DNA from: Labilibaculum euxinicum
GTDB taxonomy: Bacteria > Bacteroidota > Bacteroidia > Bacteroidales > Marinifilaceae
Length of the DNA stretch: 64,000 nucleotides
Direction: 5' to 3'
Assembly: GCF_009795715.1 (NCBI RefSeq)
Contig: NZ_WTCR01000011.1
Span: 1-64,000 of the forward strand
The position numbers and the translations under genes were made by a program. The notes beneath the pieces were generated by a model, which saw only the letters and a list, made by a program, of their open reading frames with translations, made no database searches and had not been told where the DNA came from. Positions 10,970 through 27,300 of the stretch are shown one piece after another (position 1 is the stretch's first letter; each line of letters begins with the position of its first letter).

Positions 10970-13900
10970 TTACCACTCCTGCTTTTGATCTACGTAATCG
11001 CTGAAACTGTCAATTCCTAAATCTTCTATCGATTTTTTGCAGAATGAATAGATAAAGGCTGAAGCCAAACGCGCGTTGGTGATTAATGGTATGTTTAAGT
11101 CGATGGCAGTTCTTCTGATCAGGTAATCGTTATTCAACTCCGATTTGCTTAAGTTTTTGGGGATGTTAATCACCAAATCAACTTTGCGTTCTTTTATCAA
11201 ATTCTGAGCTGTTATTTCAACATCTTCATCGGGCCAACCTACACTTTCGATGGTAATTCCGTTCTCTTCCAGGAATTTTGCGGTACCTCTTGTTCCATAT
11301 AATTTGTGTCCTTTCTCTTCAAGCATCTTCGCACTTTTTAAAAGTTCCACTTTCGAGCGAATAGGACCACTGCTGATTAGGATTGCACTCTTCGGTATGC
11401 GGTAACCAACTGATAACATTGCTTTTAATATTGCATCGTAGTAATCAGCTCCTATACAGCCAACTTCACCGGTTGATGACATATCTACACCCAAAACCGG
11501 ATCTGCTTTTGACAATCTTGAAAAGGAAAACTGAGAGGCTTTTATCCCAATATGCTCCAATTCGAACATCGAAGGTAAATTGTTTGGAATAGGAACATCT
11601 AACATTGCCTGAGTGGCAGTTTCGATAAAATTAAAGTTCATTACCTTCGAAACAAAAGGAAAACTTCTACTTGCACGCAGGTTGCACTCGATAACCTTAA
11701 TGTCATTATCCTTTGCCAGTAACTGCATATTAAAAGGTCCGGTAATGTTCAGCGATTTTGCAATTTTACCAGCAATTTTACGAATTCTGCGAATGGTTTC
11801 GAAATACAGTTTTTGCGGTGGAAATACTAAAGTAGCATCTCCCGAATGTACTCCGGCAAACTCAACATGTTCCGAAATGGCATCAATAATAATTTCACCA
11901 TTTTTGGCTACTCCGTCAAACTCGATCTCTTTTGCTTCCTGAATAAATTCACTAACAACAACCGGATACTGTTTCGATACCTGCGCAGCTAAATCCAGAA
12001 AATGGCCTAATTCATCCTTGTTCGAAACCACATTCATTGCAGCACCGGAAAGCACATAACTTGGTCTGATTAATACAGGAAAACCTACTTCATCAATAAA
12101 GTCATTAATCGCTTCCTTGCTGGTTAATTCATTCCATCTAGGCTGATCAATTTTCAATTCATCAAGCATAGCTGAAAATGTCTGTCGGTTTTCGGCTCTG
12201 TCAATCGATTCAGGAGATGTTCCCAAGACTTTTACACCTGCCTTGTGCAAACGCATTGATAGGTTCTGAGGAATCTGCCCTCCAACCGATACAATTACAC
12301 CGCGGGGTGATTCCAAATCGATAATATCCAATACTCTTTCGAAAGAAAGTTCATCAAAGTACAACCGATCACACACATCGTAATCGGTACTTACCGTTTC
12401 GGGATTGTAATTGATCATTACCGATCGTAATCCTTCTTTGTTTACCGCGTTCAGCGCATTCACACTACACCAGTCAAACTCTACCGATGATCCAATTCTG
12501 TATGCACCTGAACCCAACACAATAACGGATTGATTATCGTCTGCATAAGTAATGTCATTTTCATCACCACTGTAAGTCAAATAAACGTAGTTGGTTTGTG
12601 CAGGGTACTCTGCTGCAAGTGTGTCAATTTGTTTAACAACCGGAACAATTCCTTTTGCTTTACGGTGTTTCCTCACCTCTAAAAGCTCCGATTCCATATC
12701 AGTTCTCTCTGGTTTCAAAACAAAGCGTGCTAACTGGAAATCGGAAAAACCGTATACTTTTGCTGCTTTTAGTAAAGTGTCAGGTAATTCCTGTAAGTTA
12801 TTGTATTTCTGAAGATCCCATTTCAATTTTGTGATGTGTTCCAGTTTGCTAAGGAACCATTTATCAATTTTGGTAAGATCATGTATTTTGTCAATGGAAT
12901 ATCCTTTTTCAAAAGCTTGTGCGATAGAGAAAATACGCATATCAGTTGGATGCGTTAATTCCTGATCAACATCGTCGAACTTCGAATGAACATTCCCAAC
13001 AAATCCGTGCATTCCCTGTCCAATCATACGCAAACCTTTTTGAACGGCTTCCTCGAAATTACGACCAACGGCCATTACTTCCCCTACACTCTTCATGCTG
13101 GAACCAATCTCTTTGGTTACGCCTTCAAACTTATTTAAATCCCAACGTGGAATTTTGCAAACTACATAATCTAATGCAGGTTCGAAACAAGCTGTTGTTG
13201 TTTTTGTTACAGCATTTTTAAGCTCGTGCAAGGCATAACCCAAACCAAGTTTGGCTGCAACAAAGGCCAAAGGATAACCGGTAGCTTTCGAAGCCAATGC
13301 AGATGATCTTGATAAACGGGCATTTACTTCAATTACACGGTAATCTTCCGAATTAGGATCAAGAGCATACTGAACGTTACACTCTCCCACAACGCCAAAG
13401 TGACGAATAATTTTAATGGCTAATGATCTTAGTTTGTGATACTCCGAATTGGTCAGCGTTTGCGATGGTGCAATAACGATACTCTCACCTGTATGAATTC
13501 CCAGCGGATCGAAATTTTCCATATTACAAACTGTAATACAGTTGTCATACGCATCCCTAACCACTTCATATTCTACTTCTTTCCATCCTTTTAATGATTC
13601 CTCAACCAATATCTGACTTGAATAGGACAAAGCATTTTCAGCCAACTTCTCCAATTCAGCCATATTCGAACAGAATCCGCTTCCTTGTCCACCTAAAGTA
13701 AAGGCTGCACGAACTATAATTGGAAAACCTAGTTTTTCTGCCGCTTTTAATGCTTCAGGAATGGATTCAACGGCGAAAGACTGTGGGGTTTTTACATCGA
13801 TTCCTCGAAGCTCGTTGGCAAATATCTCTCTGTCTTCAGTTTTAATAATGGTCTCGATTGGAGTCCCTAAAACCTGAAGATTGTATTTCTTTAGCAATCC

Positions 13901-14212
13901 GGCATTGAAAAGCTGAATACCACAGTTTAATGCAGTTTGTCCTCCAAAAGCCAAAAGGATTCCATCAGGCTTTTCTTTTAAGATAACCTGTTCTACAAAA
14001 TAAGGTGTAACCGGCAAAAAATAAATTTGATCGGCAATTCCTTTTGACGTTTGTACAGTTGCAATATTGGGATTGATAAGTACAGTATGAATACCTTCTT
14101 CCTTCATTGCTTTTAATGCCTGTGATCCAGAATAGTCAAACTCCCCTGCTTCACCAATTTTAAGTGCTCCGGAACCTAATACCAGTACTTTCTTTATGTT
14201 GTCTTTTATCAT
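10970..14212 (-). CDS. carB: Carbamoyl-phosphate synthase large subunit
   Basis: Makes carbamoyl phosphate from ammonia (delivered by CarA), bicarbonate and two ATP, for arginine and pyrimidine synthesis. The protein is 1080 aa from the ATG at 14210-14212 (MIKDNIKKVLVLGSGALKIG), the usual length. It has two homologous halves, each with a preATP-grasp region (VLGSGALKIGEAGEFDYSGS; VLGSGAYRIGSSVEFDWCSV) and an ATP-grasp domain. A C-terminal MGS-like allosteric domain follows (KMLEEKGHKLYGTRGTAKFL). The frame is open 45 codons further upstream, but that extension reads through an interspersed repeat and does not look like CarB. Last gene of the arginine operon. Confidence 0.97.
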   Translation of the reverse strand: MIKDNIKKVLVLGSGALKIGEAGEFDYSGSQALKAMKEEGIHTVLINPNIATVQTSKGIADQIYFLPVTPYFVEQVILKEKPDGILLAFGGQTALNCGIQLFNAGLLKKYNLQVLGTPIETIIKTEDREIFANELRGIDVKTPQSFAVESIPEALKAAEKLGFPIIVRAAFTLGGQGSGFCSNMAELEKLAENALSYSSQILVEESLKGWKEVEYEVVRDAYDNCITVCNMENFDPLGIHTGESIVIAPSQTLTNSEYHKLRSLAIKIIRHFGVVGECNVQYALDPNSEDYRVIEVNARLSRSSALASKATGYPLAFVAAKLGLGYALHELKNAVTKTTTACFEPALDYVVCKIPRWDLNKFEGVTKEIGSSMKSVGEVMAVGRNFEEAVQKGLRMIGQGMHGFVGNVHSKFDDVDQELTHPTDMRIFSIAQAFEKGYSIDKIHDLTKIDKWFLSKLEHITKLKWDLQKYNNLQELPDTLLKAAKVYGFSDFQLARFVLKPERTDMESELLEVRKHRKAKGIVPVVKQIDTLAAEYPAQTNYVYLTYSGDENDITYADDNQSVIVLGSGAYRIGSSVEFDWCSVNALNAVNKEGLRSVMINYNPETVSTDYDVCDRLYFDELSFERVLDIIDLESPRGVIVSVGGQIPQNLSMRLHKAGVKVLGTSPESIDRAENRQTFSAMLDELKIDQPRWNELTSKEAINDFIDEVGFPVLIRPSYVLSGAAMNVVSNKDELGHFLDLAAQVSKQYPVVVSEFIQEAKEIEFDGVAKNGEIIIDAISEHVEFAGVHSGDATLVFPPQKLYFETIRRIRKIAGKIAKSLNITGPFNMQLLAKDNDIKVIECNLRASRSFPFVSKVMNFNFIETATQAMLDVPIPNNLPSMFELEHIGIKASQFSFSRLSKADPVLGVDMSSTGEVGCIGADYYDAILKAMLSVGYRIPKSAILISSGPIRSKVELLKSAKMLEEKGHKLYGTRGTAKFLEENGITIESVGWPDEDVEITAQNLIKERKVDLVINIPKNLSKSELNNDYLIRRTAIDLNIPLITNARLASAFIYSFCKKSIEDLGIDSFSDYVDQKQEW

Positions 14213-14364
14213 TTTTCTTAAGCTGAGAGCCATTAGCTTATCGCTTTTGGCTGTTAATTGATAATTGTTTTTCTTTAAAAATACCCTCCTCTGTTCTTCG
14301 GACATCTCCCCTGAAAGGGAGAATAAGAATAATGAGGCTTTTTTCAACTTTAAACTTTCTCTTT
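14213..14364 (-). repeat. Interspersed repeat-like insert between carA and carB
   Basis: This 152-base gap is unusually long for the operon. It contains a hairpin TCTCCC-CTGAAA-GGGAGA (about 14305-14322) next to a GATGTCCGAAGAACAGAGGAGGG segment of the kind dispersed in many Bacteroidota genomes, and an AGCTAATGGCTCTCAGCTT stretch. It is likely a REP-type element. It creates a spurious in-frame extension of carB. Confidence 0.5.
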
Positions 14365-15453
14365 TTAACTTTTACCTTTATGATCTTCCATCATTTTAAT
14401 GAAATCATCGAACAGAAATTCGGTATCTGTAGGGCCACTGGAAGCTTCGGGGTGAAACTGAGACGCAAAAAATGGTTTGTTTGTGTGCTTTAATCCTTCG
14501 CATGTGCCATCATTGGCATTAACAAACAATGGCTCCCACTCTTTTGGTAAGGTATCCATATTAATGGCGTACCCGTGATTTTGCGAAGTGATAAAACAAC
14601 GCTTGCTTCCTTTCAGTACAACCGGCTGATTGTGACTACGGTGTCCGTACTTCAGCTTATAAGTATCAGCACCTGCAGCAAGAGCCATTAATTGTGTTCC
14701 CAGACAAATCCCCATAATTGGTGTATCCTGACCGAAAACTGTTTTTAGATTGGCGATTGCTTTTGTATTTTGTTTTGGATCACCAGGACCATTGGATATG
14801 AATAATCCATCGTATTCCTCCTGAGTAAAATCGTAATCGTGTGGAACTCTGATTACTGTGGTATCTCTTTTTAATAAACAACGGATAATGTTGTTTTTCA
14901 CACCACAATCCAACAAAACTACTTTGTGTTTTCCATTTCCGTAAACAATTTTTTCCGGTGTGCTTACCTGAGCTACAAGATTCTCCAGATTTGGATCTTT
15001 CCATTCTGGTTCTTTGCCTTCAAAAACAATTTTGGCAAGCATACTGCCTTGCTCCCGAAGCTTTTTGGTTAATGCTCGGGTGTCAACACCGTAAATTCCT
15101 GGTATTTTGTGTTGTTTCATCCAGTCTCCAAGGCTTAAACTCGCATTCCAATGACTGAATTCCTCGGTATAATCGGACACAATAAATGCAGACACCTGAA
15201 TTTTTTCCGACTCATAAAAGCGAAACAAATCATCTTCCTGCAATGTCCCCGGCACTCCATAATTTCCAATCAGAGGAAATGTACTAACCAGAATTTGTCC
15301 GCGGTACGAAGGATCGGTTAAACTCTCCGGATATCCGGTCATTGCAGTATTAAACACCATTTCTCCGGAAATGGATTCCTGGTAACCAAATGATGTACCG
15401 ATATACTCCGATCCATCCTGTAAAATTAATTTAGCTTTTGTCTCTCCTGACAT
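14365..15453 (-). CDS. carA: Carbamoyl-phosphate synthase small subunit (glutamine amidotransferase)
   Basis: Releases ammonia from glutamine for CarB. The protein is 362 aa. The N-terminal CPSase_sm domain starts at KAKLILQDGSEYIGTSFG, with FNTAMTGYPESLTDPSY following. The C-terminal class I glutaminase domain has nucleophile Cys250 in MGICLGTQL and the catalytic His-Glu pair in SQFHPEASSGPTDTE. The residue after Gly in the nucleophile elbow is Thr where many CarA have His or Asn. It lies 45 nt after argH in the same operon. Confidence 0.97.
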   Translation of the reverse strand: MSGETKAKLILQDGSEYIGTSFGYQESISGEMVFNTAMTGYPESLTDPSYRGQILVSTFPLIGNYGVPGTLQEDDLFRFYESEKIQVSAFIVSDYTEEFSHWNASLSLGDWMKQHKIPGIYGVDTRALTKKLREQGSMLAKIVFEGKEPEWKDPNLENLVAQVSTPEKIVYGNGKHKVVLLDCGVKNNIIRCLLKRDTTVIRVPHDYDFTQEEYDGLFISNGPGDPKQNTKAIANLKTVFGQDTPIMGICLGTQLMALAAGADTYKLKYGHRSHNQPVVLKGSKRCFITSQNHGYAINMDTLPKEWEPLFVNANDGTCEGLKHTNKPFFASQFHPEASSGPTDTEFLFDDFIKMMEDHKGKS

Positions 15454-15498
15454 AAAAGTTCTATAAAATGGTTAAATATAAATTTCTTTTAAACTGGT

Positions 15499-16836
15499 CT
15501 AAATTCTATTCAATAAGTTCATGTAAGCCTCTTTGGTTTTGTTGAAATTAAAACCAACGAAAATCTCATTCATCTTATCTACAATTTTATCATTGCATAA
15601 ATTGCCGATACTGCCTTCGTGAACATGATTCACTTTACCTTCGTATTTGAAAGTACCTTCTTCCACGATTTGTCCGATCTTTTTATAAGCATCGCGAAAA
15701 GGAACACCGTTAAGTACCATCTGGTTCACTTCTTCCACTGTAAACATGTACTTATAACGTTCATCCTTTAAAACATCTTTATTGATTTTCACTTCGGAAA
15801 GCATTATTCGTGTCATTTCCAAACAAGCAATCATTTTATCGAAAGCAGGCATAAAGAACTCTTTTGTAAGCTGATAGTCTCTATGATATCCGGAAGGAAG
15901 GTTTGACGTTACTGCCTGAATTTGTGCCGGCAACATCTGCAATGCATTTGCATGAGCCCGAATCAACTCAAAAACATCAGGATTCTTTTTATGAGGCATG
16001 ATACTGCTTCCTGTTGTTAATTCATCAGGAAAACTTAAAAAGTTAAAATTCTGACAGTTATACAAACAGGCATCCATAGCTAATTTTCCAATTGTCATAG
16101 CCATATTTGCCAAGGCTGAAAGAACCGTAAATTCCATCTTTCCACGCCCCATTTGTGCATAAACTACATTGTAACTTAAATCTCTAAATCCTAGTAAGTC
16201 AGTAGTCATTTGCCGGTTTAATGGAAAAGAAGATCCGTAACCGGCTCCTGATCCTAACGGATTCTGATTAACCACTTTATAAGCAGCCTGCAACACCATC
16301 ATATCATCTGATAAGCTTTCGGCATAGGCTCCAAACCACAAGCCAAATGAGGATGGCATAGCTACTTGCAGGTGAGTATAACCAGGAATTAAGACATCCT
16401 TATTCTCATTACTCTTTGCAATCAACTCATCAAAAAGTAATCTTCCTTCCCGAACAATTTCTTCCAGTTTGTTTCTTGTAAAAAGCTTTAAATCTAAAAG
16501 AACCTGATCGTTTCTTGATCGGCCGCTATGAATCTTTTTTCCAATATCACCTAAAGCTAAAGTCAACTGATATTCAATTTGAGAATGAACATCCTCTGTT
16601 CCATCATCAATCACAAAATCATTGTTTTTTATCGAGGAATAAATTTTCCGTAATTCTTCCTGAATCAATTTCAATTCTGTTTTTTCCAATAATCCGATGG
16701 ATTCGAGCATTTCAATGTGTGCAAGCGATCCCAGCACATCAAACGCAGCAAGTTGCAAGTCCAATTCGCGATCCATTCCAACAGTGAATTGTTCAATTTT
16801 TTTATCAACTTTTACGCCTTTATCCCAAAGTTTCAT
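15499..16836 (-). CDS. argH: Argininosuccinate lyase
   Basis: Cleaves argininosuccinate to arginine and fumarate, the last step of the pathway. The protein is 445 aa, of the fumarase/aspartase superfamily. The signature loop is GSSIMPHKKNPDVFELIRAHA, with His in place of the more usual Gln in MPQKKNP. Other conserved stretches are EDVHSQIEYQL and KIHSGRSRNDQVLLDLKL, and PGYTHLQVAMPSSFG. It lies 68 nt downstream of argE. Confidence 0.97.
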   Translation of the reverse strand: MKLWDKGVKVDKKIEQFTVGMDRELDLQLAAFDVLGSLAHIEMLESIGLLEKTELKLIQEELRKIYSSIKNNDFVIDDGTEDVHSQIEYQLTLALGDIGKKIHSGRSRNDQVLLDLKLFTRNKLEEIVREGRLLFDELIAKSNENKDVLIPGYTHLQVAMPSSFGLWFGAYAESLSDDMMVLQAAYKVVNQNPLGSGAGYGSSFPLNRQMTTDLLGFRDLSYNVVYAQMGRGKMEFTVLSALANMAMTIGKLAMDACLYNCQNFNFLSFPDELTTGSSIMPHKKNPDVFELIRAHANALQMLPAQIQAVTSNLPSGYHRDYQLTKEFFMPAFDKMIACLEMTRIMLSEVKINKDVLKDERYKYMFTVEEVNQMVLNGVPFRDAYKKIGQIVEEGTFKYEGKVNHVHEGSIGNLCNDKIVDKMNEIFVGFNFNKTKEAYMNLLNRI

Positions 16837-16904
16837 AGTAATTCTCTTTAAAGTTAGGTGTTCGTGTTTAATCCGTTTTTTACTTCTTGTTAACTTAGCT
16901 GAGG

Positions 16905-17975
16905 TTATATTTTCAAACCGTTCAACAAGTTATAATATTTTTCAATTCCTTTTTCAATTTCGTCAATGTAGATGAACTCATCAGCGGTATGAGATCTGGC
17001 AGAATCTCCCGGACCCAATTTTAAGGTTGGAAATCCCTTCATAATAGCCTGATCAGATGTGGTTGGAGAACCGTAATATTTCATGCCTAAGTTCAATCCT
17101 GTCTGAATTAACGGGTGCTCCAATGGTATTCCTGAAGAATTCATTCTAAAGGATCGGGCTGTAACATTACTTTCCAACTTTTCTTTGATGATTGCAAATG
17201 CCTTTTCGTTAGAATAATGCTCATTCGTGCGAACATCAACTACAAATTTGCAGGATGATGGAATTACATTGTGCTGTTTCCCTGCATTGATCTGTGTTAC
17301 TGTCATTTTTACTGCTCCCAGTATCTCAGATTCCAAAGCAAATTTATAAGAATGAAGCCATTCTATATCTCTCATTGCAATAGTTATTGAGTTAACACCC
17401 TCGTTACGGGCCGCATGTCCGGGAACACCAATTGCATCGCAATCCAGCACCATCAATCCTTTTTCTGCAATGGCCATTTCCATAAGTGTCGGCTCGCCTA
17501 CAATTCCAACATCAATTCGTCCTATTTCTTCCTGCACCAGCTCAAAACCTCCGGTTCCTGATATTTCCTCTTCTGCAGATGCTACAAAAACACGGTTATA
17601 AGCCTGATTTGTTCCCTCTAATGCCAGAAAGCTTGCGAAAAGAGAAACCAGACAGCCACCCGCATCATTGCTCCCCAGTCCGTACAATTTGCCGTCGGAC
17701 ACCTCCGGATTGAAAGGATCTTTGGTATACTTTTCAGAAGGTTTTACGGTGTCTAAATGAGAATTTAGTAGCAAAACCGGCTTTTTATCATCAAAATCCT
17801 TATTGAAAGCCCATACATTATTTCCTTTACGGTGTACCTGATATCCAAAATCAGTTAGTTTCTGCTCCATTACATCTGCAACTTGATTTTCTTCTTTGCT
17901 GTATGATTGAATAGAAATCAATTGCTTAAGTGTGGTCAAGGCTATTTCAGTATACTTTTTTAAATCCATATGCAT
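16905..17975 (-). CDS. argE: M20-family deacylase of arginine biosynthesis (ArgE type)
   Basis: A 356-aa zinc-dependent amidohydrolase. Metal-site motifs are LLNSHLDTVKP, GLGSNDAGGCLVSL and VASAEEEISGTGG, and a dimerisation domain lies in the middle. In Bacteroidota the homologue in this operon position removes the acyl group (acetyl or succinyl) from acyl-citrulline rather than acyl-ornithine. Which substrate applies here cannot be read from sequence. It is spaced 3 nt from argB; the start may instead be the second Met (17969). Confidence 0.88.
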   Translation of the reverse strand: MHMDLKKYTEIALTTLKQLISIQSYSKEENQVADVMEQKLTDFGYQVHRKGNNVWAFNKDFDDKKPVLLLNSHLDTVKPSEKYTKDPFNPEVSDGKLYGLGSNDAGGCLVSLFASFLALEGTNQAYNRVFVASAEEEISGTGGFELVQEEIGRIDVGIVGEPTLMEMAIAEKGLMVLDCDAIGVPGHAARNEGVNSITIAMRDIEWLHSYKFALESEILGAVKMTVTQINAGKQHNVIPSSCKFVVDVRTNEHYSNEKAFAIIKEKLESNVTARSFRMNSSGIPLEHPLIQTGLNLGMKYYGSPTTSDQAIMKGFPTLKLGPGDSARSHTADEFIYIDEIEKGIEKYYNLLNGLKI

Positions 17976-17978
17976 AAG

Positions 17979-18758
17979 CTAAGAATTAATAATTTGTGTT
18001 CCTGAGGAATGATTTGTCTCCATCGAAACAAAATTCCCGATTACAACCTCTTCCACTCCTTTTGATAAGGCATAAAATGCATTTTGTGTTTTGGGCAGCA
18101 TTCCTGTATTAATCTTACCTAATTTCACCATTTCGGAGCATTTTACGTCAGAAAGAACAGGCATTACACTACTGTCATCCTCCGCATTCATTAATACTCC
18201 AAGTTTTTCGAAACTATAAATCAATTTCACCTTATAGAAACGACTTAAAGCAACGGCTACTTCTGTTGCTACTGTATCGGCATTGGTGTTGAATAATTGT
18301 CCCTTGCCATCATGAGTAATCGGAGCAATAACCAAAACCGAATTGCATTCAATTTGCTTGCATAAAGCCAGGGTATTCACTGCTGTAACATCACCAACAA
18401 AACCAAAATCGACCTTTGTATTGCTTCTTTTTTCAGCCCTGATCAAATCCAAATCGGCACCACACATTCCCATTGCATTTACTCCACGAGCCTGCAAAGC
18501 AGCAACAATATTCTTATTAATTAGTCCTGCATAAACCATGGTAACCAACTTCAGGTTTTCGGCATCAGTTATGCGTCTTCCATCCACCATTTTGGTTTGA
18601 ACTCCAAGTTTGCCTGCTAAATCGGATGCTAGTTTTCCACCTCCGTGAACCAATACAATCTTGCCGTTTAAATTTGAAAATGCATCGAGAAAATCATTTA
18701 GTTTTTCGGTATCGTCAATTACGTTACCACCAATTTTTACAACAGTTAAATCTATCAT
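17979..18758 (-). CDS. argB: Acetylglutamate (or acylglutamate) kinase
   Basis: Phosphorylates the N-acylglutamate gamma-carboxyl using ATP. The protein is 259 aa, of the amino acid kinase fold. The N-terminal lysine motif is VVKIGGNVID and the Gly-rich loop is LVHGGGKLASDLAGKLG, with ITDAENLKLVTMVYAGLINK following. The C-terminus has MLPKTQNAFYAL. It is short, with no N-terminal helix of the arginine-inhibited hexameric type, so feedback control at this enzyme may be absent and transcriptional control may carry more weight (inference). Its start overlaps the argD stop by 4 nt. Confidence 0.95.
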   Translation of the reverse strand: MIDLTVVKIGGNVIDDTEKLNDFLDAFSNLNGKIVLVHGGGKLASDLAGKLGVQTKMVDGRRITDAENLKLVTMVYAGLINKNIVAALQARGVNAMGMCGADLDLIRAEKRSNTKVDFGFVGDVTAVNTLALCKQIECNSVLVIAPITHDGKGQLFNTNADTVATEVAVALSRFYKVKLIYSFEKLGVLMNAEDDSSVMPVLSDVKCSEMVKLGKINTGMLPKTQNAFYALSKGVEEVVIGNFVSMETNHSSGTQIINS

Positions 18759-19888
18759 GTCAATACAATTTGGGTTAGTTTTTGAAATGCTTGAATGAAT
18801 TGATCCACCTCTTTTTTGGTAATTGAAAGTGGTGGCAGTAAACGAAGTGTTGTACTACCTGATGATCCTGTGAAAATTCCATATTCCTCAAGAAGTTGTT
18901 TCCTGATTTTAGGCATATCCTCAAGATCAATACCAATCATTAATCCTTTCCCCCTTATTGCTTTTATTGCTTTATTATCTTTTAATTCAGAGATTAAATA
19001 ATCTCCTAATCTGTCTGCATTATCGATTAACTGTTCTTCTTCGATAGCCTCTAAAACAGCCATTCCTGCAGCACATGCCAAATGATTTCCCCCAAAGGTT
19101 GTTCCTAACATTCCGCTCCATGCTTTTATTGCAGGTGAGATAATTACTCCGGCAATTGGAAATCCATTTCCCATTCCTTTCGCTGTAGTTATAATATCTG
19201 CCTTAACACCTGCATGCTGATGTGCGAAAAATTTCCCTGTTCTTCCATAGCCTGACTGAATCTCATCCAAAATAAGCATTGCTTTGTGAGTTTTACACAA
19301 ACTTTCGGCAGATTTTAAGAATTCAACCGATGGTTCAACAACTCCATTCACACCTTGTATTCCTTCAATAATCACTGCTGCAACGTCATTTTCCCCAAGA
19401 GTTTTTTCCAGTGCGGGGATGTCATTCATCTCTATAAAAACAACATCGTGTTTTACATTAAATTCTGATGATAATGCGGGATTATCTGTTATTGCTAAAA
19501 CACCACTGCTTCTTCCGTGAAAAGCTCCTTTAATTGCAACAATTTTCGATTTACCTGTGTGAAAAGATGCCACTTTCAAGGCATTTTCGTTGGCTTCGGC
19601 TCCTGAGTTACACAAAAATAAATTGTAATCATCATATCCTGAAAGTGTACCCAATTTGCTGGCTAATTTCTCCTGCATATCATTTCTTACTGCATTCGAA
19701 TAAAAGCCTAAACAATGAAGTTGGTGCTCCATTCTGAAAATATAGTGAGGATGACTGTGACCAATTGAAATCACACCATGTCCACCATAAAAATCTAAAT
19801 ATTTATTTCCTTTATCGTCAGATATGCTTGATCCTTTCCCATTAACCAGGTTTATATCGTAACAATTATATACGTTAAATAATTCCAT
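18755..19888 (-). CDS. argD: Acetylornithine (acylornithine) aminotransferase
   Basis: Class III PLP aminotransferase that converts N-acylglutamate semialdehyde to N-acylornithine. The protein is 377 aa. The PLP lysine lies in DIITTAKGMGNGFPIAG, and the cofactor-binding aspartate in LILDEIQSGYGRTGKFFAHQ. FLCNSGAEANENALKVA is the Gly/Ala phosphate-binding segment. In related Bacteroidota operons an acylornithine carbamoyltransferase gene often follows argD. Here argD runs straight into argB with a 4-nt overlap. Confidence 0.96.
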   Translation of the reverse strand: MELFNVYNCYDINLVNGKGSSISDDKGNKYLDFYGGHGVISIGHSHPHYIFRMEHQLHCLGFYSNAVRNDMQEKLASKLGTLSGYDDYNLFLCNSGAEANENALKVASFHTGKSKIVAIKGAFHGRSSGVLAITDNPALSSEFNVKHDVVFIEMNDIPALEKTLGENDVAAVIIEGIQGVNGVVEPSVEFLKSAESLCKTHKAMLILDEIQSGYGRTGKFFAHQHAGVKADIITTAKGMGNGFPIAGVIISPAIKAWSGMLGTTFGGNHLACAAGMAVLEAIEEEQLIDNADRLGDYLISELKDNKAIKAIRGKGLMIGIDLEDMPKIRKQLLEEYGIFTGSSGSTTLRLLPPLSITKKEVDQFIQAFQKLTQIVLT

Positions 19889-19900
19889 TTCTTTCTTTTT

Positions 19901-20866
19901 TTAAAATCCAACCGGTTTTAAGCCCAATCCCAATATTTCCGGCATTCCGAATAATAAATTCATATTCTGAACTGCCTGACCAGAAGCCCCTTTCAATAAA
20001 TTATCAATCACTGAAATAATCATCAGCTTGCTACCATGTTTTTCAAGATACAATACACATTTATTTGTGTTTACAACTTGCTTTACATCGGGCGATATGT
20101 TTGATATTGAAACGAATGGATGATTTTTATAATATGTTTTGTACTTCTCAACAGCTTCTTCAGCAGACCAATCACAATCGGTATAGATTGTGGCCATTAT
20201 TCCCCGGCTAAAGTTTCCTCTAACGGGAATAAAATTGATTTCTTTATCGAAATTGGGTTGAAGTTGCAAAACCGTTTCTGTTATCTCAGCCAAATGCTGA
20301 TGAGTAAATGCTTTGTATACGGAAACATTGTTGTTTTTCCAGCTAAAATGTGAAGTTGATGTTGGATTCTGTCCTGCACCAGTTGATCCTGTTATTGCAG
20401 TAACATGAACCTCCTCCTTCAATTTACTTTCATTAGCTAAAGGCAATAATCCCAATTCTATACATGTAGCAAAACATCCCGGATTGGCTATTTTATCAGC
20501 ATTTGCAATTTTGGCTTTATTAATTTCGGGCAATCCGTAAACAAAACCTTTTTCATTTGCTTTTGGTCTGAAATCAGTACTTAAATCGATAATTTTGACA
20601 GCCTCAGGTAAATTATTCTCTTCCAAAAACAATTTGGTTTTCCCATGTCCCGAACAGATAAATAAAACATCAATTGCCTTATAATCAGCTTCGGAAAATG
20701 ACAAATCTGTATCTCCTAACAAATCCCTATGGACATCTGATACCGGATGTCCCATATGACTTGTACTCTGCACGAAACTGATATTTGCCTGTGGATGCCA
20801 AATTAAAATCCGCAACAATTCTCCCGCCGTATACCCTGCTCCACCTATAATTCCTACATTCACCAT
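19901..20866 (-). CDS. argC: N-acyl-gamma-glutamyl-phosphate reductase
   Basis: NADPH-dependent reduction of acylglutamyl phosphate to the semialdehyde. The protein is 321 aa. The Rossmann motif GIIGGAGYTAGELLRIL is at the N-terminus. The active-site cysteine lies in ANPGCFATCIELGLLPL, and STGAGQNPTSTSHFSWKNN is a conserved substrate-loop region. It lies 2 nt after argG and 12 nt before argD. Confidence 0.97.
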   Translation of the reverse strand: MVNVGIIGGAGYTAGELLRILIWHPQANISFVQSTSHMGHPVSDVHRDLLGDTDLSFSEADYKAIDVLFICSGHGKTKLFLEENNLPEAVKIIDLSTDFRPKANEKGFVYGLPEINKAKIANADKIANPGCFATCIELGLLPLANESKLKEEVHVTAITGSTGAGQNPTSTSHFSWKNNNVSVYKAFTHQHLAEITETVLQLQPNFDKEINFIPVRGNFSRGIMATIYTDCDWSAEEAVEKYKTYYKNHPFVSISNISPDVKQVVNTNKCVLYLEKHGSKLMIISVIDNLLKGASGQAVQNMNLLFGMPEILGLGLKPVGF

Positions 20867-20868
20867 AA

Positions 20869-22068
20869 CTACTGTTTATTTACGGTGTAATAGATCTTCA
20901 ATGAATTAGCCAGAATATTGGTAAATCCTTTTGCATCATCTGCTGTCCATCCTTTACTGCTTTCGCCGTACTGACCAAATAAATCAGTCATTAAGTCGTT
21001 AGGTGAAGTAATACCTTCTACAAAGAAATATTTTGGATTCAAATTTAAAATGGCTGTTCCTGTTACCTTTTTTTGAGTGTCAAGAAGGAAAGTCTCCATG
21101 TTTCTCATTACCGGCTCTAAGTACTGAGCTTCGTGCAACAACATTCCATAAAAATTGGCAATTTGCTCTTTCCAATGCATTTGCCATTTGGTAAGCGTGT
21201 GTTTTTCAAGAGTTTGATGAGCCTTAATAATCATTAAAGGCGCAGCAGCTTCAAATGCAACCCTTCCTTTTGTTCCAATAATTGTGTCACCAATGTGCAT
21301 GTCTCTTCCAATGCCAAATTGAGAACCAATTGCTTCAATTTTTTTAATTGCATCCAAAGGATGTTGTACTTTTTCTCCATTCACACTAACCAATTCTCCC
21401 TTTTCGAATCCTATGGTCAGTTTCTCCGATTCGGTTTTAACAACCTGTTTTGGATAGGCATCTTCAGGAAGAGGTTGATCTGAAGTAAGTGTTTCTTTTC
21501 CACCGATACTTGTACCCCAGATTCCTGCATTAATGGAATATTTCATTTTTTCGAAATTGGCTGAAATGCCATTTTCTTTCAGGTAATTGATTTCTGTTTC
21601 CCTGCTCAACTGCATATCTCTGGTTGGAGTAATAATTTCGGCATTGGGAGCCATTATTTTAAAAATAAGATCAAATCTTATCTGATCGTTACCAGCTCCG
21701 GTACTTCCGTGAGCGATATAATCAGCATCAATGGAATGGGCATATTGAGCAATTGCCATGGCTTGAAATGCTCTTTCTGAGCTTACAGACAATGGATATG
21801 TATTGTTTTTTAAAACATTTCCCATTATCATGTATTTAATGCATTTATCGTAGTATTCTTCGGTAATATCAAGTGAGGCATGCTGAACAACTCCCAGTTG
21901 TTTTGTCCTGTTCTCTATTTCAGCTAATTCTTCATTGCTGAAACCACCTGTATTCCCCAATACTGTGTACACATCCATGTTTAACTCCTTAGACAAATAA
22001 AGTGCACAGTATGTTGTATCTAAACCTCCGCTATATGCTAATACTACTTTTTTCTTAGTTGATGTCAT
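20869..22068 (-). CDS. argG: Argininosuccinate synthase
   Basis: Joins citrulline and aspartate with ATP to give argininosuccinate. The protein is 399 aa, normal length. The ATP pyrophosphatase loop is KVVLAYSGGLDTTYCALYL, and the citrulline/aspartate-binding region contains IAHGSTGAGNDQIRFDL. It is the second gene of the operon, 69 nt after the GNAT gene. Confidence 0.97.
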   Translation of the reverse strand: MTSTKKKVVLAYSGGLDTTYCALYLSKELNMDVYTVLGNTGGFSNEELAEIENRTKQLGVVQHASLDITEEYYDKCIKYMIMGNVLKNNTYPLSVSSERAFQAMAIAQYAHSIDADYIAHGSTGAGNDQIRFDLIFKIMAPNAEIITPTRDMQLSRETEINYLKENGISANFEKMKYSINAGIWGTSIGGKETLTSDQPLPEDAYPKQVVKTESEKLTIGFEKGELVSVNGEKVQHPLDAIKKIEAIGSQFGIGRDMHIGDTIIGTKGRVAFEAAAPLMIIKAHQTLEKHTLTKWQMHWKEQIANFYGMLLHEAQYLEPVMRNMETFLLDTQKKVTGTAILNLNPKYFFVEGITSPNDLMTDLFGQYGESSKGWTADDAKGFTNILANSLKIYYTVNKQ

Positions 22069-22137: not shown

Positions 22138-22707
22138 TTACTTTTTATCCTTTTTATTGGGATCATACAGCATACCTGTACACAAACACATTTTCCGATT
22201 GGTTCGCTGCAATATGTCATAATTCACACAACCACTGCATCCTTTCCAAAATGTATCATCTGTAGTCAGCTCCGAAAAGGTAACTGGTCTGTATCCTAAT
22301 TCTGAATTGATTTTCATTACAGGAAGACTGGTGGTGAGTCCAAATATTTTGGCCTCAGGATAACGTTTTCTGGATAACTCGAATGCTTTAGCTTTAATCA
22401 TTTTAGCTAAACCTACAGCTCTGTAATCAGGATCAACAATTAGTCCCGAATTAGCTACATACTTGCCGTGTTCCCAAGTTTCTATATAACAGAAACCAAT
22501 CACTTTATCCTGATCAAAGGCAATAATTGCCTTTCCTTCCTGAATTTTTTGTACGATGTACAAAGCTTCTCTTTTAGCAATTCCGGTACCGCGGATTTTC
22601 GCAGCACTCTCAATCATATCACAAATTTCCTGGGCATATTCGTAATGCCTTAAACCTGCTATAATGACACTTAATTTTTGCTCAATTTCCATTGAAGTAT
22701 CTATCAT
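22138..22707 (-). CDS. GNAT acetyltransferase heading the arg operon, probable N-acylglutamate synthase
   Basis: A 189-aa GNAT-fold protein. The acetyl-CoA region is about residues 85-110 (GLIVDPDYRAVGLAKMIKAKA). A cysteine-rich tail (FWKGCSGCVNYDILQ, then KMCLCTGML) has CxxC and CxC spacing suggestive of a metal site. Position as first gene after an arginine attenuator, and the absence of argA or argJ in the cluster, suggest it acylates glutamate. That activity is inferred, not shown. The ATG at 22707 is favoured because it is 27 nt after terminator 4, the same spacing that separates each upstream leader from the preceding terminator. Confidence 0.8.
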   Translation of the reverse strand: MIDTSMEIEQKLSVIIAGLRHYEYAQEICDMIESAAKIRGTGIAKREALYIVQKIQEGKAIIAFDQDKVIGFCYIETWEHGKYVANSGLIVDPDYRAVGLAKMIKAKAFELSRKRYPEAKIFGLTTSLPVMKINSELGYRPVTFSELTTDDTFWKGCSGCVNYDILQRTNRKMCLCTGMLYDPNKKDKK

Positions 22708-22722
22708 TTTATTCTAAATAAT

Positions 22723-22863
22723 CTAAATTTCCCAAAAAAGTGCTACTGCTGTTAAGCACAACCACCTGTTATTTAATTCTACAAAAAAATCCGCTCTTGC
22801 GGTCTGGTTGTTTTGTTCCCGAAAACAGCGTCTTCGAAAGTCTAAGGAGTTGAAAAAATTCAT
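22723..22863 (-). CDS. Arginine leader peptide 4
   Basis: A 46-codon ORF beginning MNFFNSLDFRRRCFRE, with Arg at codons 10, 11, 12 and 15. The start lies 24 nt after terminator 3. Unlike leaders 1-3 its stop codon (22723-22725) lies beyond both terminator candidates, so full translation would pass through them. Only the early part may matter for sensing, or this module may have decayed. Confidence 0.6.
   Translation of the reverse strand: MNFFNSLDFRRRCFREQNNQTARADFFVELNNRWLCLTAVALFWEI
22734..22759 (-). terminator. Attenuator terminator 4 (last before the GNAT gene)
   Basis: On the minus strand GTGCT (22759-22755) pairs with AGCAC (22744-22740), followed by six T (22739-22734). The stem is only 5 bp with a 10-nt loop, weaker than terminators 1-3. 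A second weak candidate, CCGC-AAGA-GCGG with seven T, lies at 22783-22802. Confidence 0.55.
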
Positions 22864-22886
22864 TTTTTTTAGTTTTTAGTTTATAC

Positions 22887-22919
22887 AAAAAAAGCTTACC
22901 GTCCGAAAACAGTAAGCTT
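22887..22919 (-). terminator. Attenuator terminator 3
   Basis: Minus-strand stem AAGCTTACTG (22919-22910) with CGGTAAGCTT (22901-22892): 10 bp with one G-U, 8-nt loop. It is followed by a T-run at 22893-22887. It starts 5 nt after the stop of leader 3. Confidence 0.88.
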
Positions 22920-22924
22920 GTTAA

Positions 22925-23026
22925 TTATGATATTTCAATAACAGAAATAGCAAGCTCATCCGTTCCCCCTGGGTAACAGTTACTACGCAAATGGCGTCGG
23001 CTTTGTGTATAGATAATTTGCTTCAT
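22925..23026 (-). CDS. Arginine leader peptide 3
   Basis: A 33-aa ORF beginning MKQIIYTQSRRHLRS, with Arg at codons 10, 11 and 14 (CGA CGC ... CGT). The start is 25 nt after terminator 2. It shares position of the Arg run, size class and downstream terminator with the other three leaders. Confidence 0.75.
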   Translation of the reverse strand: MKQIIYTQSRRHLRSNCYPGGTDELAISVIEIS

Positions 23027-23050
23027 TTCTATTTGTGATTATATAGTTTC

Positions 23051-23087
23051 AAAAAAAAGGCTTACCGATAAAAACGGTAAGCCTTTT
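23051..23087 (-). terminator. Attenuator terminator 2
   Basis: Perfect 13-bp stem, arms 23055-23067 and 23075-23087 (core GGCTTACCG/CGGTAAGCC), 7-nt loop. It is followed on the minus strand by eight T. It starts 15 nt after the stop of leader 2. Confidence 0.93.
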
Positions 23088-23102
23088 AAATATTGCTGCT
23101 AA

Positions 23103-23189
23103 TCATTGATTACAAGACAATACGACACCAACCGCTTTTCCTAAAGGAGCGCTCTGTCTTCGTCGTTGTATGTTGTAAAATAAAATCAT
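23103..23189 (-). CDS. Arginine leader peptide 2
   Basis: A 28-aa ORF beginning MILFYNIQRRRQSAPLGK, with three consecutive Arg at codons 9-11 (CGA CGA AGA). The start is 30 nt after terminator 1. Confidence 0.8.
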   Translation of the reverse strand: MILFYNIQRRRQSAPLGKAVGVVLSCNQ

Positions 23190-23218
23190 TTGATGTTTTT
23201 TTCTGTTGTTTCAAATTC

Positions 23219-23246
23219 AAAAAAAATGCTTCCCGATATGGAAAGC
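23219..23246 (-). terminator. Attenuator terminator 1
   Basis: Minus-strand stem GCTTTCC (23246-23240) with GGGAAGC (23234-23228): 7 bp with one G-U, 5-nt loop. It is followed after one A by eight T (23226-23219). It starts 31 nt after the stop of leader 1. Confidence 0.85.
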
Positions 23247-23277
23247 TTGGAAAATTAAATATGCCAGAGCTTACACC

Positions 23278-23334
23278 TTATCGTTTGGATAAAGATCTAA
23301 TAAAGCGTCGTCGAATAATTTGTAAATTTTCCAT
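23278..23334 (-). CDS. Arginine leader peptide 1
   Basis: An 18-aa ORF, MENLQIIRRRFIRSLSKR, with Arg at codons 8, 9, 10, 13 and 18. It begins about 23 nt downstream of a -7 box. This is the classic composition of an attenuator leader peptide for an arginine operon. Confidence 0.82.
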   Translation of the reverse strand: MENLQIIRRRFIRSLSKR

Positions 23335-23356
23335 ACCTGTTCTTATTTGTTGTCTA

Positions 23357-23364
23357 CAAAGATA
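23357..23364 (-). promoter_or_regulatory. Promoter -7 box of the arginine operon leader
   Basis: TATCTTTG on the minus strand, an exact TAnnTTTG match, about 23 nt upstream of leader 1. No comparable box was found between the four leader modules, so one promoter probably serves all. A clear -33 TTTG was not found. Confidence 0.6.
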
Positions 23365-23684
23365 AATGCAAAAAACAGTAATATCCTAATAAAACCATCT
23401 TTTTTTTAGTTCATCCTTATTTAAAACCTTTGCGTATAAATTTCATTGTGTTTTTAATGAAATACCATCAATAATCAGCACTCATCTTTCTGAAATTTCA
23501 TGTTTTTTAGTAAAGATGACGGATGGAATTCAATCAAACAATTTAGATGAAATCATATCTTTTAGTCTAAATAATAGTGTATTATAGTTTTTTAACAGTT
23601 CTAAATTCATTTTTTTAGCAACCATTTATAAATTGCGCCGTAGAATTGCTTTAGTATCTAAATTTAAAAAGATTTGAAATTATC
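23365..23684. other. Divergent intergenic region between the arg leader and the small membrane protein gene
   Basis: About 320 AT-rich bases carrying the upstream part of the arg promoter and the promoter of the 23685 gene. No operator palindrome with arginine-box character was recognised. Confidence 0.4.
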
Positions 23685-23963
23685 ATGGAGTTAAAAAAAA
23701 TTGTTGGATTTGTGTTGTTGGGCTTAGCTGTTGTTACTTTCTTCCTTTATCTCTCCTTACCTTTTATTCTATCGGGTTCTAATAAAATCATTCTGTTAAC
23801 GGCATCCGTTTACCTTTTGAATAAAGTTTTCTTTTATTCTTCAATTTATATTTTAGGAAAACAATTCATTTCCAAGTTTGGAAAATATTTACCCAAATGG
23901 ATTGAAAGACGATTGTTAAAATTATTAAAAGTTCAACCTGTTGTTGAAACAAACAATAAGTAA
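23685..23963 (+). CDS. Small two-helix membrane protein (transporter-suffix-like)
   Basis: A 92-aa protein with TM segments at about residues 6-29 (IVGFVLLGLAVVTFFLYLSLPFIL) and 35-58. A basic C-terminal tail follows (SKFGKYLPKWIERR). The layout resembles small proteins annotated as transporter suffix domain proteins in Bacteroidota. Function is unknown. It is divergent from the arg operon and upstream of gltB by about 390 nt. Confidence 0.6.
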   Translation: MELKKIVGFVLLGLAVVTFFLYLSLPFILSGSNKIILLTASVYLLNKVFFYSSIYILGKQFISKFGKYLPKWIERRLLKLLKVQPVVETNNK

Positions 23964-24354
23964 TCTTCTTTTTAGCATTAAACATAAATTTCAAAAGACA
24001 ATTCCTTCGCTTTCTTTTCAGACAAATGTCTCTTATTTTTATAAATGCCTGAATATCATGCAAACCTTTGCAATGATAATTATCATGTTTTTTTTACTTT
24101 TCAAACGTTTCCGCCCATATACTTAACAATAATAATTGCATATATAGATTTAATTGTGTTATATTTGCTCAACGGATTAGACAAGCAAAAAATTGATCAC
24201 CTCCATCTTTGGGTGTTTCTTGAATTAAGGCAACGACTCTCGGATTTATAAAAGTCGTTACTAAATGATATGGAATGGGGATTTCTATTCATTTCTTAAG
24301 GTCCTTAAGTTTAAAAGATAAAATCATTTCCTGGCTTCGCACTAAAAATTGCCT
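23964..24354 (+). promoter_or_regulatory. gltB upstream region with -7 box, palindromes and a structured leader
   Basis: A TATATTTG box at 24160-24167, with TTG at 24136-24138 as a possible -33 element, predicts a 5' UTR of about 180 nt. Upstream of it lie two adjacent palindromes, TGCAAACCTTTGCA (24059-24072) and ATGATAATTATCAT (24073-24086). Within the UTR, AACGACT (24232-24238) can pair with AGTCGTT (24253-24259). A short ORF (24265-24321, MIWNGDFYSFLKVLKFKR) follows, with no obvious regulatory bias. Confidence 0.45.
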
Positions 24355-27300
24355 ATGCGAAACCTTAGACCAAAACAGCAGGGTCTTTACGACCCTCAGA
24401 ACGAACATGACAATTGTGGGATTGGCTTTGTAGCCAACATTAAAGGAAAAAAATCTTTCGAGATTATTACCCGTGGACTGGAGGTGCTTTGCAATATGGA
24501 ACACCGCGGCGCGCGTGGTGCTGATAATGTAAGTGGTGATGGTGCCGGTATTTTAATGCAATTGCCTCACAGTTTCTACAAAAAAATTGGAATCAAGCTT
24601 CCTTTAGCAGGAAGATATGGTACCGGTTTAATTTTCTTACCAAAAGACGAAACCGAAGAAAAGTTCTGTCTTGAAGTTCTTATTCAGATTCTGGAAGAAG
24701 AAGGATTGGAATTTCTTCAATTACGTGATGTCCCAACGGACACCAATGCAATTGGTGAAATTGCAAGACAATCAGAACCAGTGATCAAACAAATCTTTGT
24801 TGGTGGAAATTACGAACAGGATGAATTGGAACGACGACTCTATTTAGCTAGAAAACAATCTGAAAGTTATATTCGCGCAACTAAAATGAAGGAAAAGGAG
24901 ATGTTTTACATTCCTAGTCTTTCGTCTAAAGTTTTGGTATATAAGGGAATGTTTGCAAGCGACCAACTGGGGAAATATTATAGTGATCTTCAGGATTCCC
25001 GTATGGAAAGCGCTATTGCAATGGTTCACTCACGTTTTAGTACCAACACATTCCCTTCCTGGGATTTAGCTCAGCCATTTCGTATTGTAGCTCACAATGG
25101 TGAAATCAATACAATAAAAGGAAACCGTTTGTGGATGCAAGCCCGTGAATCTCTTTTAAAATCGGAGATGTTTGGTGATGACATCAAAAAACTATTCCCG
25201 GTTGTTGAACCAAACAAGAGTGATTCTGCCTCTTTCGATAATGTGCTTGAATTTTTATTCTTAACTGGAAGAAGTCTGCCGCATGCCTTGAGTATGATGG
25301 TGCCGGAATCGTGGAATGAAAAAAATCCTATCCCTGATAGTTTAAAAGCATTTTACGAATATCATTCCACTTTTATGGAGCCTTGGGATGGACCAGCTTC
25401 GTTGGTGTTTTCTGATGGCCGTTATATTGGCGGCACATTGGATAGAAATGGATTGCGCCCTTCCCGTTATGTGATTACTCAGGATGACATGATTGTAATG
25501 GGTTCTGAAGTGGGTATTCAACAATTTAAAGCCGAAGAAATCAAAGAAAAGGGTCGTCTAAGACCTGGTAAGCTATTGCTTGTTGATACTCAGTTAGGAA
25601 TCATCATTCCTGACCAGGAGGTAAAATCACAACTGACTTATCGTAATCCTTATCAAAACTGGCTAAAAGAGAATCGTTTGGATTTAAAGGCTATTCCTGT
25701 TGAAAAAAGGGTTCCTTCAGATATTGGAGATCATTTTAACATTTGCCAGAAGACCTTTAACTATTGCAAAGAAGATTTTGAAAGAGTTCTTCTTCCAATG
25801 GCAACGGGTGCACAAGAGCCTGTGGGATCGATGGGTAACGATGCTCCGATACCGGTATTGTCGCCAAAACCTCAATTGTTTTTCAATTACTTCCGTCAAT
25901 TATTTGCTCAGGTAACCAATCCTCCAATTGATTCAATTCGGGAGAATCTGGTGATGGATCTGACCAATTATATAGGATCAGTTCAGAAAAATTTATTGGA
26001 TGAAACAGCTCAGCATTGTAAGTTAATTCGATTCAAAAGTCCGTTAATTACTAATACTGATCTTGGCAAGATAAAGAAACTTAAGCATGAAGAATTCAGA
26101 CATCAATCCATTGATATACTGTTTAAAGCATCTCAAAATGGTGCTGGCTTGGAAAGTGCTCTGGATTCTATTTGTCTGTTAGCCGAAAAGGCTGTTGATG
26201 AACAGAAAAATTACATTATTCTTACGGATCGGAATATGTCCGAATCAATGGCTCCAATTCCTGTTCTTTTAGCTGTAGCAGCGGTTCATCATCATCTTAT
26301 AAAGAAGAGAAAGAGGATGCAGATTGGTCTCGTTGTGGAAACGGGTGAGGCTCGTGAAGTAAATCATATTGCCTTACTGATTGCATACGGGGCTAGTGTT
26401 ATTAATCCATACATGAGTTATGCGGTTATTGACAAATTGGTGAAAGATGGAAGAACCAATCTTGAGTATAAAACGGCTCGTAAAAACTATATAAAAGCCG
26501 TTGATAAGGGATTGCTAAAAGTGATGTCTAAAATGGGAATATCAACCATTGGCAGTTATCTTGGTGCCCAAATTTACGAGGCTTTAGGTGTGAGTAAAGA
26601 TGTTATTGACAAATACTTCACAGGTACAATTTCCAGGATTGAGGGAATTGGATTAAAAGAGATTTCAGAAGAAATTCTTTGTCATCACAAGAAAGCTTAT
26701 TCAGAAGAGGATCCTTTCAATAATCAGGATTTGCTCACCAATAATGGAAATATTCACTACAGAAAAAATGGTGAGCCTCATAGCTGGAACCCTGAAACAA
26801 TAGGATTGCTGCAATGGGCAACCAGAACAAATGATTTCAAAAAATTTAAGGAATACAGCACAATTGTAAATAAAGAAACTGCTTCTCCCAATTTTTTAAG
26901 AGGCTTCTTTGATTATAAAAAGAATCCTATTGATATCAGTGAAGTAGAACCGGTTGAAAACATCATGAAAAGATTTTGTACTGGTGCCATGTCTTATGGT
27001 TCCATTTCAAAAGAGGCTCATGAAGCTCTGGCTATTGCAATGAATAAAATTGGCGGCAGAAGTAATACCGGTGAAGGAGGAGAAAGTTCAAAACGCTTCT
27101 ATTCAAGTGCAAGAAGTTCAATTAAGCAAATTGCTTCAGGTCGATTTGGTGTAAATGCTGAATATCTTGTAAATGCTGATGAATTACAAATTAAGGTAGC
27201 TCAAGGTGCAAAACCGGGAGAAGGAGGTCAATTACCTGGATTTAAAGTTGATAATATCATAGCTAAGCTTAGGAATTCAACTCCGGGGATTACACTGATC

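Follow-up and report, generated by a model that had tools for sequence, protein, structure and literature searches.

Leader-peptide attenuation of the trp/his type is a textbook mechanism that is usually drawn as a single unit, and T-boxes bind tRNA directly. In 2004, Vitreschak and colleagues reportedly predicted single attenuators in Bacteroidetes/Chlorobi. Ribosome-mediated transcription attenuation by leader peptides is described in PMC3641672, whose authors call the tandem attenuators of mgtCBR a singular example. A transcriptome of Flavobacterium psychrophilum gave clues for leader-peptide attenuation of amino-acid operons (PMC9723704), and a 462-nt 5' UTR with several putative short ORFs is reported in Bacteroides thetaiotaomicron (BT_4401; PMC7366714); in their accessible portions, these two maps mention neither an arginine leader nor serial attenuators that share one amino acid. 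Three modules of the arginine leader described here resemble the trp/his attenuators, with end-product codons in a short ORF, alternative protector, antiterminator and terminator pairings, and a terminator before the operon. Unlike that type, the array strings together three units for a single amino acid and adds a fourth ORF; this amino acid is arginine, and the host is a member of the Bacteroidota without a detected ArgR.

The locus lies in a 64,000-nt stretch of Labilibaculum euxinicum (contig NZ_WTCR01000011.1; hereafter the window), where one promoter element and four Arg-rich short ORFs stand ahead of an arginine/carbamoyl-phosphate operon of 11.7 kb (Table 1). An earlier sequence-only reading had placed four Arg ORFs in series behind one -7 box and regarded them as equivalent attenuators. 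Its coordinates and module lengths were confirmed (145, 163, 163 and 156 nt, with leader starts at 23334, 23189, 23026 and 22863 and the GNAT ATG at 22707), and so was the single promoter element: this -7 element, TATCTTTG or TACATTTG, lies 30-32 nt upstream of the leader-1 ATG in all 22 genomes carrying the array, and no second TAnnTTTG stands between this element and the first gene in 21 of them. The equivalence of the four modules was not supported, as module 4 is without a clearly conserved terminator and the C-terminus of its ORF is constrained at the amino acid level. ‘Four equivalent attenuators’ should thus better be read as ‘three plus a distinct fourth stage’. Regarding the structural genes, argC, argB, argH, carA and carB have NCBIfam matches over the curated cut-off, and the best or typical matches of argG, argD and the argE-like gene lie below it. 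The first gene, a GNAT acetyltransferase, gave no NCBIfam match at E 0.001 and is called argA-like from its operon position only.

Table 1. Features of the arginine leader and operon in the window.
Feature	Position	Strand	Remark
-7 promoter element TATCTTTG	23357..23364	-	in front of leader 1
Leader ORF 1, MENLQIIRRRFIRSLSKR	23278..23334	-	found in 22/22 genomes
Module 1 protector (1:2) hairpin, covers leader-1 stop codon	23276..23294	-	RNAalifold, columns 44-64 of A3
Module 1 antiterminator (23272-23264 with 23250-23243)	23243..23272	-	85.7% of cells paired
Intrinsic terminator 1	23219..23248	-	94.7% of cells paired; RNAalifold; detectors
Leader ORF 2, MILFYNIQRRRQSAPLGKAVGVVLSCNQ, stop TGA in 22/22	23103..23189	-	
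Module 2 pairing of Arg-codon part (23164-23160) with UUGUC (23120-23116)	23116..23164	-	RNAalifold, columns 29-33/73-77 of A4
Module 2 antiterminator (23134-23122 with 23085-23075)	23075..23134	-	87.0% of cells paired
Intrinsic terminator 2, 11 or more bp, 8 U	23051..23087	-	99.6% of cells paired
Leader ORF 3, MKQIIYTQSRRHLRSNCYPGGTDELAISVIEIS	22925..23026	-	SRRHLRSNCYP in 22/22
Module 3 protector (1:2) hairpin	22960..22979	-	RNAalifold; 90.0% of cells paired
Module 3 antiterminator (22962-22952 with 22919-22910)	22910..22962	-	96.5% of cells paired
Intrinsic terminator 3	22887..22919	-	98.2% of cells paired
ORF 4, 46 codons, Arg-rich first third, stop TAG in 22/22	22723..22863	-	
Hairpin in ORF 4: weak terminator, translational element or incidental	22740..22759	-	
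First structural gene, GNAT acetyltransferase (argA-like)	22138..22707	-	Pfam Acetyltransf_1 over cut-off
Remainder of operon: argG, argC, argD, argB, argE-like, argH, carA, carB	10970..22068	-	gaps of at most 69 nt

Modules were called by a detector defined as an ATG ORF with at least three Arg in six codons together with a stem-loop and a T-rich tail. Three modules were called in the 657-nt leader (22708-23364); among 1000 dinucleotide shuffles of this leader, 997 gave no module and 3 gave one. Over both strands of the whole window, the detector called these three modules and one other place. Sixty of the 96 genomes searched as relatives carry the GNAT gene. Where the GNAT protein is 72-100% identical, all 22 genomes (six genera) have the four ORFs and the three terminators in the same order; at the other 38 GNAT loci (at most 66% identity) the detector calls no module, three of these loci having just 89, 213 and 522 nt upstream. 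The Arg codons and stems, whose conservation in relatives was the refutation test that the sequence-only reading had set itself, are kept in 22 of 22 genomes. ORF 4 was found in 22 of the 56 family genomes, which are the same 22 that bear the array. Because synonymous change in GNAT is high, with a pS of 0.34 within the Labilibaculum-like group and of 0.64-0.82, near saturation, between the three sub-clades, this conservation is not mere recent ancestry.

Throughout, Labilibaculum-like denotes the GTDB genera g1 and g10, Marinifilum-like g5, g7 and g9, and Ancylomarina-like g17, labels that are based in part on how similar the leaders are. A search with the GNAT protein gave Labilibaculum (99% identical), Marinifilum and Ancylomarina as the nearest named relatives; a merger of these genera has been proposed in one paper (PMC12325347). 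Twenty of the 22 array genomes have a completeness of 90% or more and a contamination of 5% or less. Alignments A3-A6 hold 23 sequences each, namely the 22 genomes and an extra locus, L064; for pair counts, rows identical over the stretch were removed, so that 21, 21, 20 and 22 rows were kept. The start of leader 1 in L012 was set at an inner ATG, the outer one lying upstream of the -7 box, and inner ATGs were also taken for leader 2 ORFs longer than 29 codons (L013, L015, L017, L022). In a search of leader 3 against the other 294 genomes of an order sample holding few close relatives, two weak matches of 16-17 residues appeared (E 0.002 and 0.008), and leader 4 gave six weak matches beyond the window among 395 phylum genomes, none of full length; all of these were judged to be chance. 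The family search with leader 4 gave a second weak partial match in G034 (E 0.004). Upstream of the promoter, at about 23430, most Labilibaculum- and Marinifilum-like genomes carry CGCAAAGGTT, and Ancylomarina-like genomes carry its reverse complement AACCTTTGCG or a near form.

In the case of leaders 1-3, each shows clustered Arg codons in a short ORF in 22 of 22 genomes, and the chance of such a cluster in a 28-codon ORF, simulated with the Arg use of the window, is about 0.007. CGA makes up 57, 73, 42 and 36% of the Arg codons in leaders 1-4 (pooled over the 22 genomes) and 7 of the 17 in the window's own four leaders; its share in 27 ORFs of the window is 16%. Enteric bacteria read CGA more slowly than CGU/CGC in a his-leader assay, in which AGG stalled most (PMC4046918). 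In leaders 1 and 2, the alignment gaps that fall on Arg codons are codon-sized and keep the frame, and therefore speak for translation. Locus L064 has a Cys codon in place of the third Arg codon of leader 1, and leader 3 reads on through its terminator in four genomes (L012, L013, L015, L017). The pN/pS was 0.41-0.69 for the first seven codons of leader 1 and 0.46-0.90 for the tested stretch of leader 2; in the core of leader 3 it was 0.00-0.31, with a lowered pS as expected where RNA structure counts too. The TGA stop of leader 2 (23105-23103) is fixed in 22 of 22 genomes and the stop of leader 3 varies; TGA closes 2 of the 27 long ORFs in the window.

Modules 1-3 look like classical leader-peptide attenuators in their pairings and also in having early Arg codons and a U-tract. 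The sequence-only reading could not settle the antiterminators by eye; possible ones were now found in modules 1-3, each using the 5' arm of its own terminator. Their paired cells amount to 85.7-96.5%, compared to 15-71% when the partner is slid (15.5-70.8% for antiterminator 1, 38-53% for antiterminator 2 and 28-50% for antiterminator 3). Antiterminator 1 is, however, broken in 5 Ancylomarina-like rows of 21, where another pairing, spotted by eye, would have to replace it. Covariation, which had been proposed as a check on the region, was found in the protectors of modules 1 and 3, which RNAalifold gives unprompted: in the former one pair is changed on both sides in 7 of 21 rows, and in the latter U-A is changed to C-G in 5 of 20 rows (slid versions of this protector reach 51-64%). 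Elsewhere compensatory changes are few, with none in antiterminators 1 and 2 or terminators 1 and 3 and one two-sided change (one cell) each in terminator 2 and antiterminator 3. The Arg-codon pairing of module 2 is practically invariant and hence without covariation. In module 3, the antiterminator overlaps the protector at one side and the terminator at the other, which is, as far as these predicted pairings go, a classical switch. Letter shuffles do not separate most stems from chance because the stems hardly vary, whereas the slid control does separate them. Folded as single sequences, modules 1-4 gave z-values of -1.92, -4.58, -2.58 and -1.47, so that module 2 alone folds far better than its shuffles.

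The leader had also been taken for the only visible control of the operon, and this agrees with the distribution of ArgR (PF02863), which was detected in 0 of 22 array genomes, the source genome included. In the other 34 family genomes, ArgR was found in 24 and missing in 10; 21 of the 34 carry the GNAT gene, 14 of them together with ArgR. Five of the seven GNAT-bearing genomes with neither ArgR nor array belong to genus g16, and six of the seven are at most 84% complete. Because the 22 genomes are related, the coincidence of array and ArgR absence amounts to an association on a single branch and should not be counted as 22 independent cases. In other families with GNAT, an argR match lies just upstream on the same strand, at 42-117 nt, in 11 of 17 genomes. 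The motif TATGCATA, picked by eye from a few of the sequences tested, occurs within 300 nt before the GNAT gene in 7 of the 14 ArgR-bearing family genomes and in 1 of the 7 without ArgR (G053, 66% complete); as an ArgR box at the array it was rejected, with 0 of 22 genomes having it within 300 nt before the GNAT gene or before leader 1. A literature search for ArgR regulons in Bacteroidetes found none. A similar control of argF was also rejected: in the 4 genomes covered, the argF homologue is located away from the operon, behind what by eye is a carbamate kinase gene, and has no Arg leader with terminator. Upstream of GNAT, two Tenacibaculum loci (L069, L074) show two Arg-rich short ORFs in series, for which the detector found no T-tract terminator. 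Several other Flavobacteriia and Dyadobacter have, by eye, a single Arg-containing leader, in some cases then a GCCC..GGGC or GGTGAGTCCGGTTC stretch.

Repeated attenuators are found before other operons of the array clade as well. Cognate leader runs, each with a terminator, were seen for his (His), ilv (Ile/Val) and trp (Trp). The trp operon has one leader module (two clade genomes), ilv has two serial Ile/Val modules, which precede ilvD in all 21 clade genomes counted (including L184, G000:C32), and his has one module in 16 of 21 and two in 5. These five are Ancylomarina-like genomes (L182, L220, L226, L227, L238) with two His-run modules before hisG, whereas Labilibaculum- and Marinifilum-like genomes have one; because the two terminators are alike, this suggests a duplication within the Ancylomarina-like branch. 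Outside the clade, one module was counted for ilv in 7 of 8 genomes and for his in 8 of 9, with none detected in the remaining genome of each set. For these counts, ilv of G022 was taken as 1, two of its 3 detector modules resting on a non-leader ORF, his of G004 was counted by inspection (His-run leader and terminator, detector 0), and G006 (63% complete, no ilvD or hisG match) was left out of both. Given the ilv and his repeats, arginine is therefore the extreme of a wider habit of the clade. Upstream of ilvD, two loci from different genera, L204 (G028) and L208 (G045), have identical ilv leader peptides and terminator stems despite differing arg regions, which points to either transfer or a mixed assembly.

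ORF 4 has no indel in the alignment and a conserved C-terminus, NN[RK]WL.LT.VALFWE[IT]. It ends 7-17 nt before the GNAT ATG, and its TAG (22725-22723) is fixed in 22 of 22 genomes, whereas the GNAT gene uses TAA and TAG. The pN/pS of codons 29-46 was 0.07, 0.22, 0.05 and 0.16 in four clade comparisons (pS 0.31-0.93) and that of GNAT 0.09-0.21; by these ratios, the C-terminal peptide appears to be constrained about as strongly as the enzyme. Codons 2-22 are only loosely constrained (pN/pS 0.18-1.01), and therefore the peptide end alone seems to be held. Such amino-acid-level constraint is absent from the tested stretches of leaders 1 and 2. AlphaFold gives one helix for ORF 4 (mean pLDDT 77, pTM 0.35). 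Since ORF 4 is without a clearly conserved terminator and ends so close to the first gene, it is most likely a uORF or arrest peptide that gates translation of this gene; a translational gate is favoured because the start of GNAT would be covered by any ribosome that paused on the stop codon of ORF 4. ORF 4 is thus a candidate arginine-linked arrest peptide in Bacteroidota.

Altogether, we consider it probable, with good confidence, that the operon is under serial ribosome-operated arginine control by three leader-peptide attenuators and a distinct fourth ORF stage. Judging from the -7 element, transcription would start at a single site about 15-20 nt before leader 1, and RNA polymerase would pass the three attenuators one after another. 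When arginine is plentiful, the ribosome would move past the Arg codons, many of them CGA. The antiterminator would be blocked by the protector pairing or by the ribosome itself, and each terminator would form and presumably end transcription. When charged tRNA-Arg is scarce, the ribosome would stall on the Arg codons, the antiterminator would form and the polymerase would continue. At the fourth stage, the C-terminal nascent peptide of ORF 4 and its fixed TAG would most likely slow the ribosome and gate translation of the first enzyme. That the serial stages multiply, giving a steep response, is reasonable to infer. More tentatively, and as something we rate somewhat short of probable, this RNA-only control, with three serial ribosome-operated terminators and an arrest-peptide uORF gating the first committed enzyme, may have replaced ArgR as part of a clade-wide serial duplication of attenuators (two before ilv, one or two before his, and three with an additional stage before arg) that widens the range of regulation.

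If all four modules were equivalent transcription attenuators, with the terminator of the last one at 22734-22759 within ORF 4, this would account for the Arg run in ORF 4 and for the hairpin and U-rich tail near its end. Over 22 rows, 81.8% of cells are paired in the window's 5-bp stem, which has two-sided changes at 3 of its 5 pairs, the closing pair being G-C in 11 and A-U in 9 of the rows; two of the five pairs are broken, one in 7 rows and one in 11. A different, mostly stronger hairpin is folded by most Marinifilum- and Ancylomarina-like rows, and among the 7 Marinifilum-like rows it reaches -8.9 to -11.7 kcal/mol in 6. A fourth module passes the detector in 7 of 22 genomes and in locus L064. 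The window is not among these; its stem reaches only -5.4 kcal/mol, RNAalifold gives module 4 almost no consensus stem (-0.6 kcal/mol), and the U-tract is interrupted in many rows. Compared to synonymous shuffles, the hairpin has z-values of -3.1 to -0.5 in 12 Marinifilum- and Ancylomarina-like rows and of -1.05 to 0.16 in 10 Labilibaculum-like rows, the latter thus folding no or little better than the shuffles. Furthermore, the hairpin lies in translated sequence, where a ribosome reading onward would melt it, the opposite of what is expected in modules 1-3, and the amino-acid-level constraint on ORF 4 would be left unexplained. Of the four terminators first proposed, 1-3 were therefore retained and the fourth is doubtful, and we regard four equivalent attenuators as unlikely.

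The extra modules could also be redundant duplicates kept by drift, with one attenuator doing the work; terminators 2 and 3 do share motifs and the clade duplicates modules elsewhere, but drift should have decayed some modules, and none of them is missing from the 22 genomes, where their Arg codons and terminators persist across near-saturated divergence, which makes this account distinctly improbable. An action in trans of the short terminated RNAs or leader peptides, with the cis effect secondary, as for peTrpL in Sinorhizobium, seems quite unlikely. The ORF 4 C-terminus and the leader 3 core are conserved as peptides and trans-acting leader peptides exist (PMC7298713); however, competing cis structures are found in modules 1-3, the array stands at the operon in the genomes examined, and the sole match of leader 3 in its own whole genome is the array itself. 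Finally, terminators with alternative pairings would look alike if a riboswitch, T-box or protein-bound antiterminator took the place of ribosome stalling. We give this hardly any credence: an Rfam scan of 22500-24400 gave 13 matches up to E 5, all below the gathering score, the Arg ORFs keep their frame with codon-sized gaps, and other operons have runs of their cognate codons.

The serial ribosome-operated control that we prefer, which apparently stands in for the usual repressor, may illustrate how a strong control can arise in bacteria by repetition of weak ones. Together with its one- and two-unit his and ilv relatives, the arg array is a ready experimental series on how stages multiply. 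With this series, one can also ask if the degree of starvation to which a stage responds differs between early and late stages, and if the role of a repressor can pass to RNA control in series.

Among described systems, Salmonella mgtCBR likewise has two leader ORFs in series in one mRNA leader; it differs in responding to two signals (ATP and proline) with stems unlike intrinsic terminators, whereas the array would respond to one signal with three intrinsic terminators (PMC3641672). Tandem T-boxes, for instance the two or three found upstream of threonyl-tRNA synthetase genes in Bacillota (PMC12452182), are serial for the same amino acid like the array. The direct ligand of a T-box is tRNA, whereas in the array the translating ribosome would be the sensor. 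In the case of ORF 4, a possible model by analogy is orf34 of the Salmonella speF leader, a uORF that contains consecutive Arg codons as well as a conserved domain and acts on the following gene at several levels (PMC6386406). As described there, orf34 is a single, Rho-dependent uORF of a polyamine gene, and the likeness is one of description rather than of shown sequence kinship. A literature search over titles and the starts of abstracts, with most subscription journals outside its scope, found no leader-peptide attenuator series for one amino acid, and because of this we judge the array to be new as a series. Overall, it is a variation on known leader-peptide attenuation, in which the serial ribosome-operated units for one amino acid are the new element.
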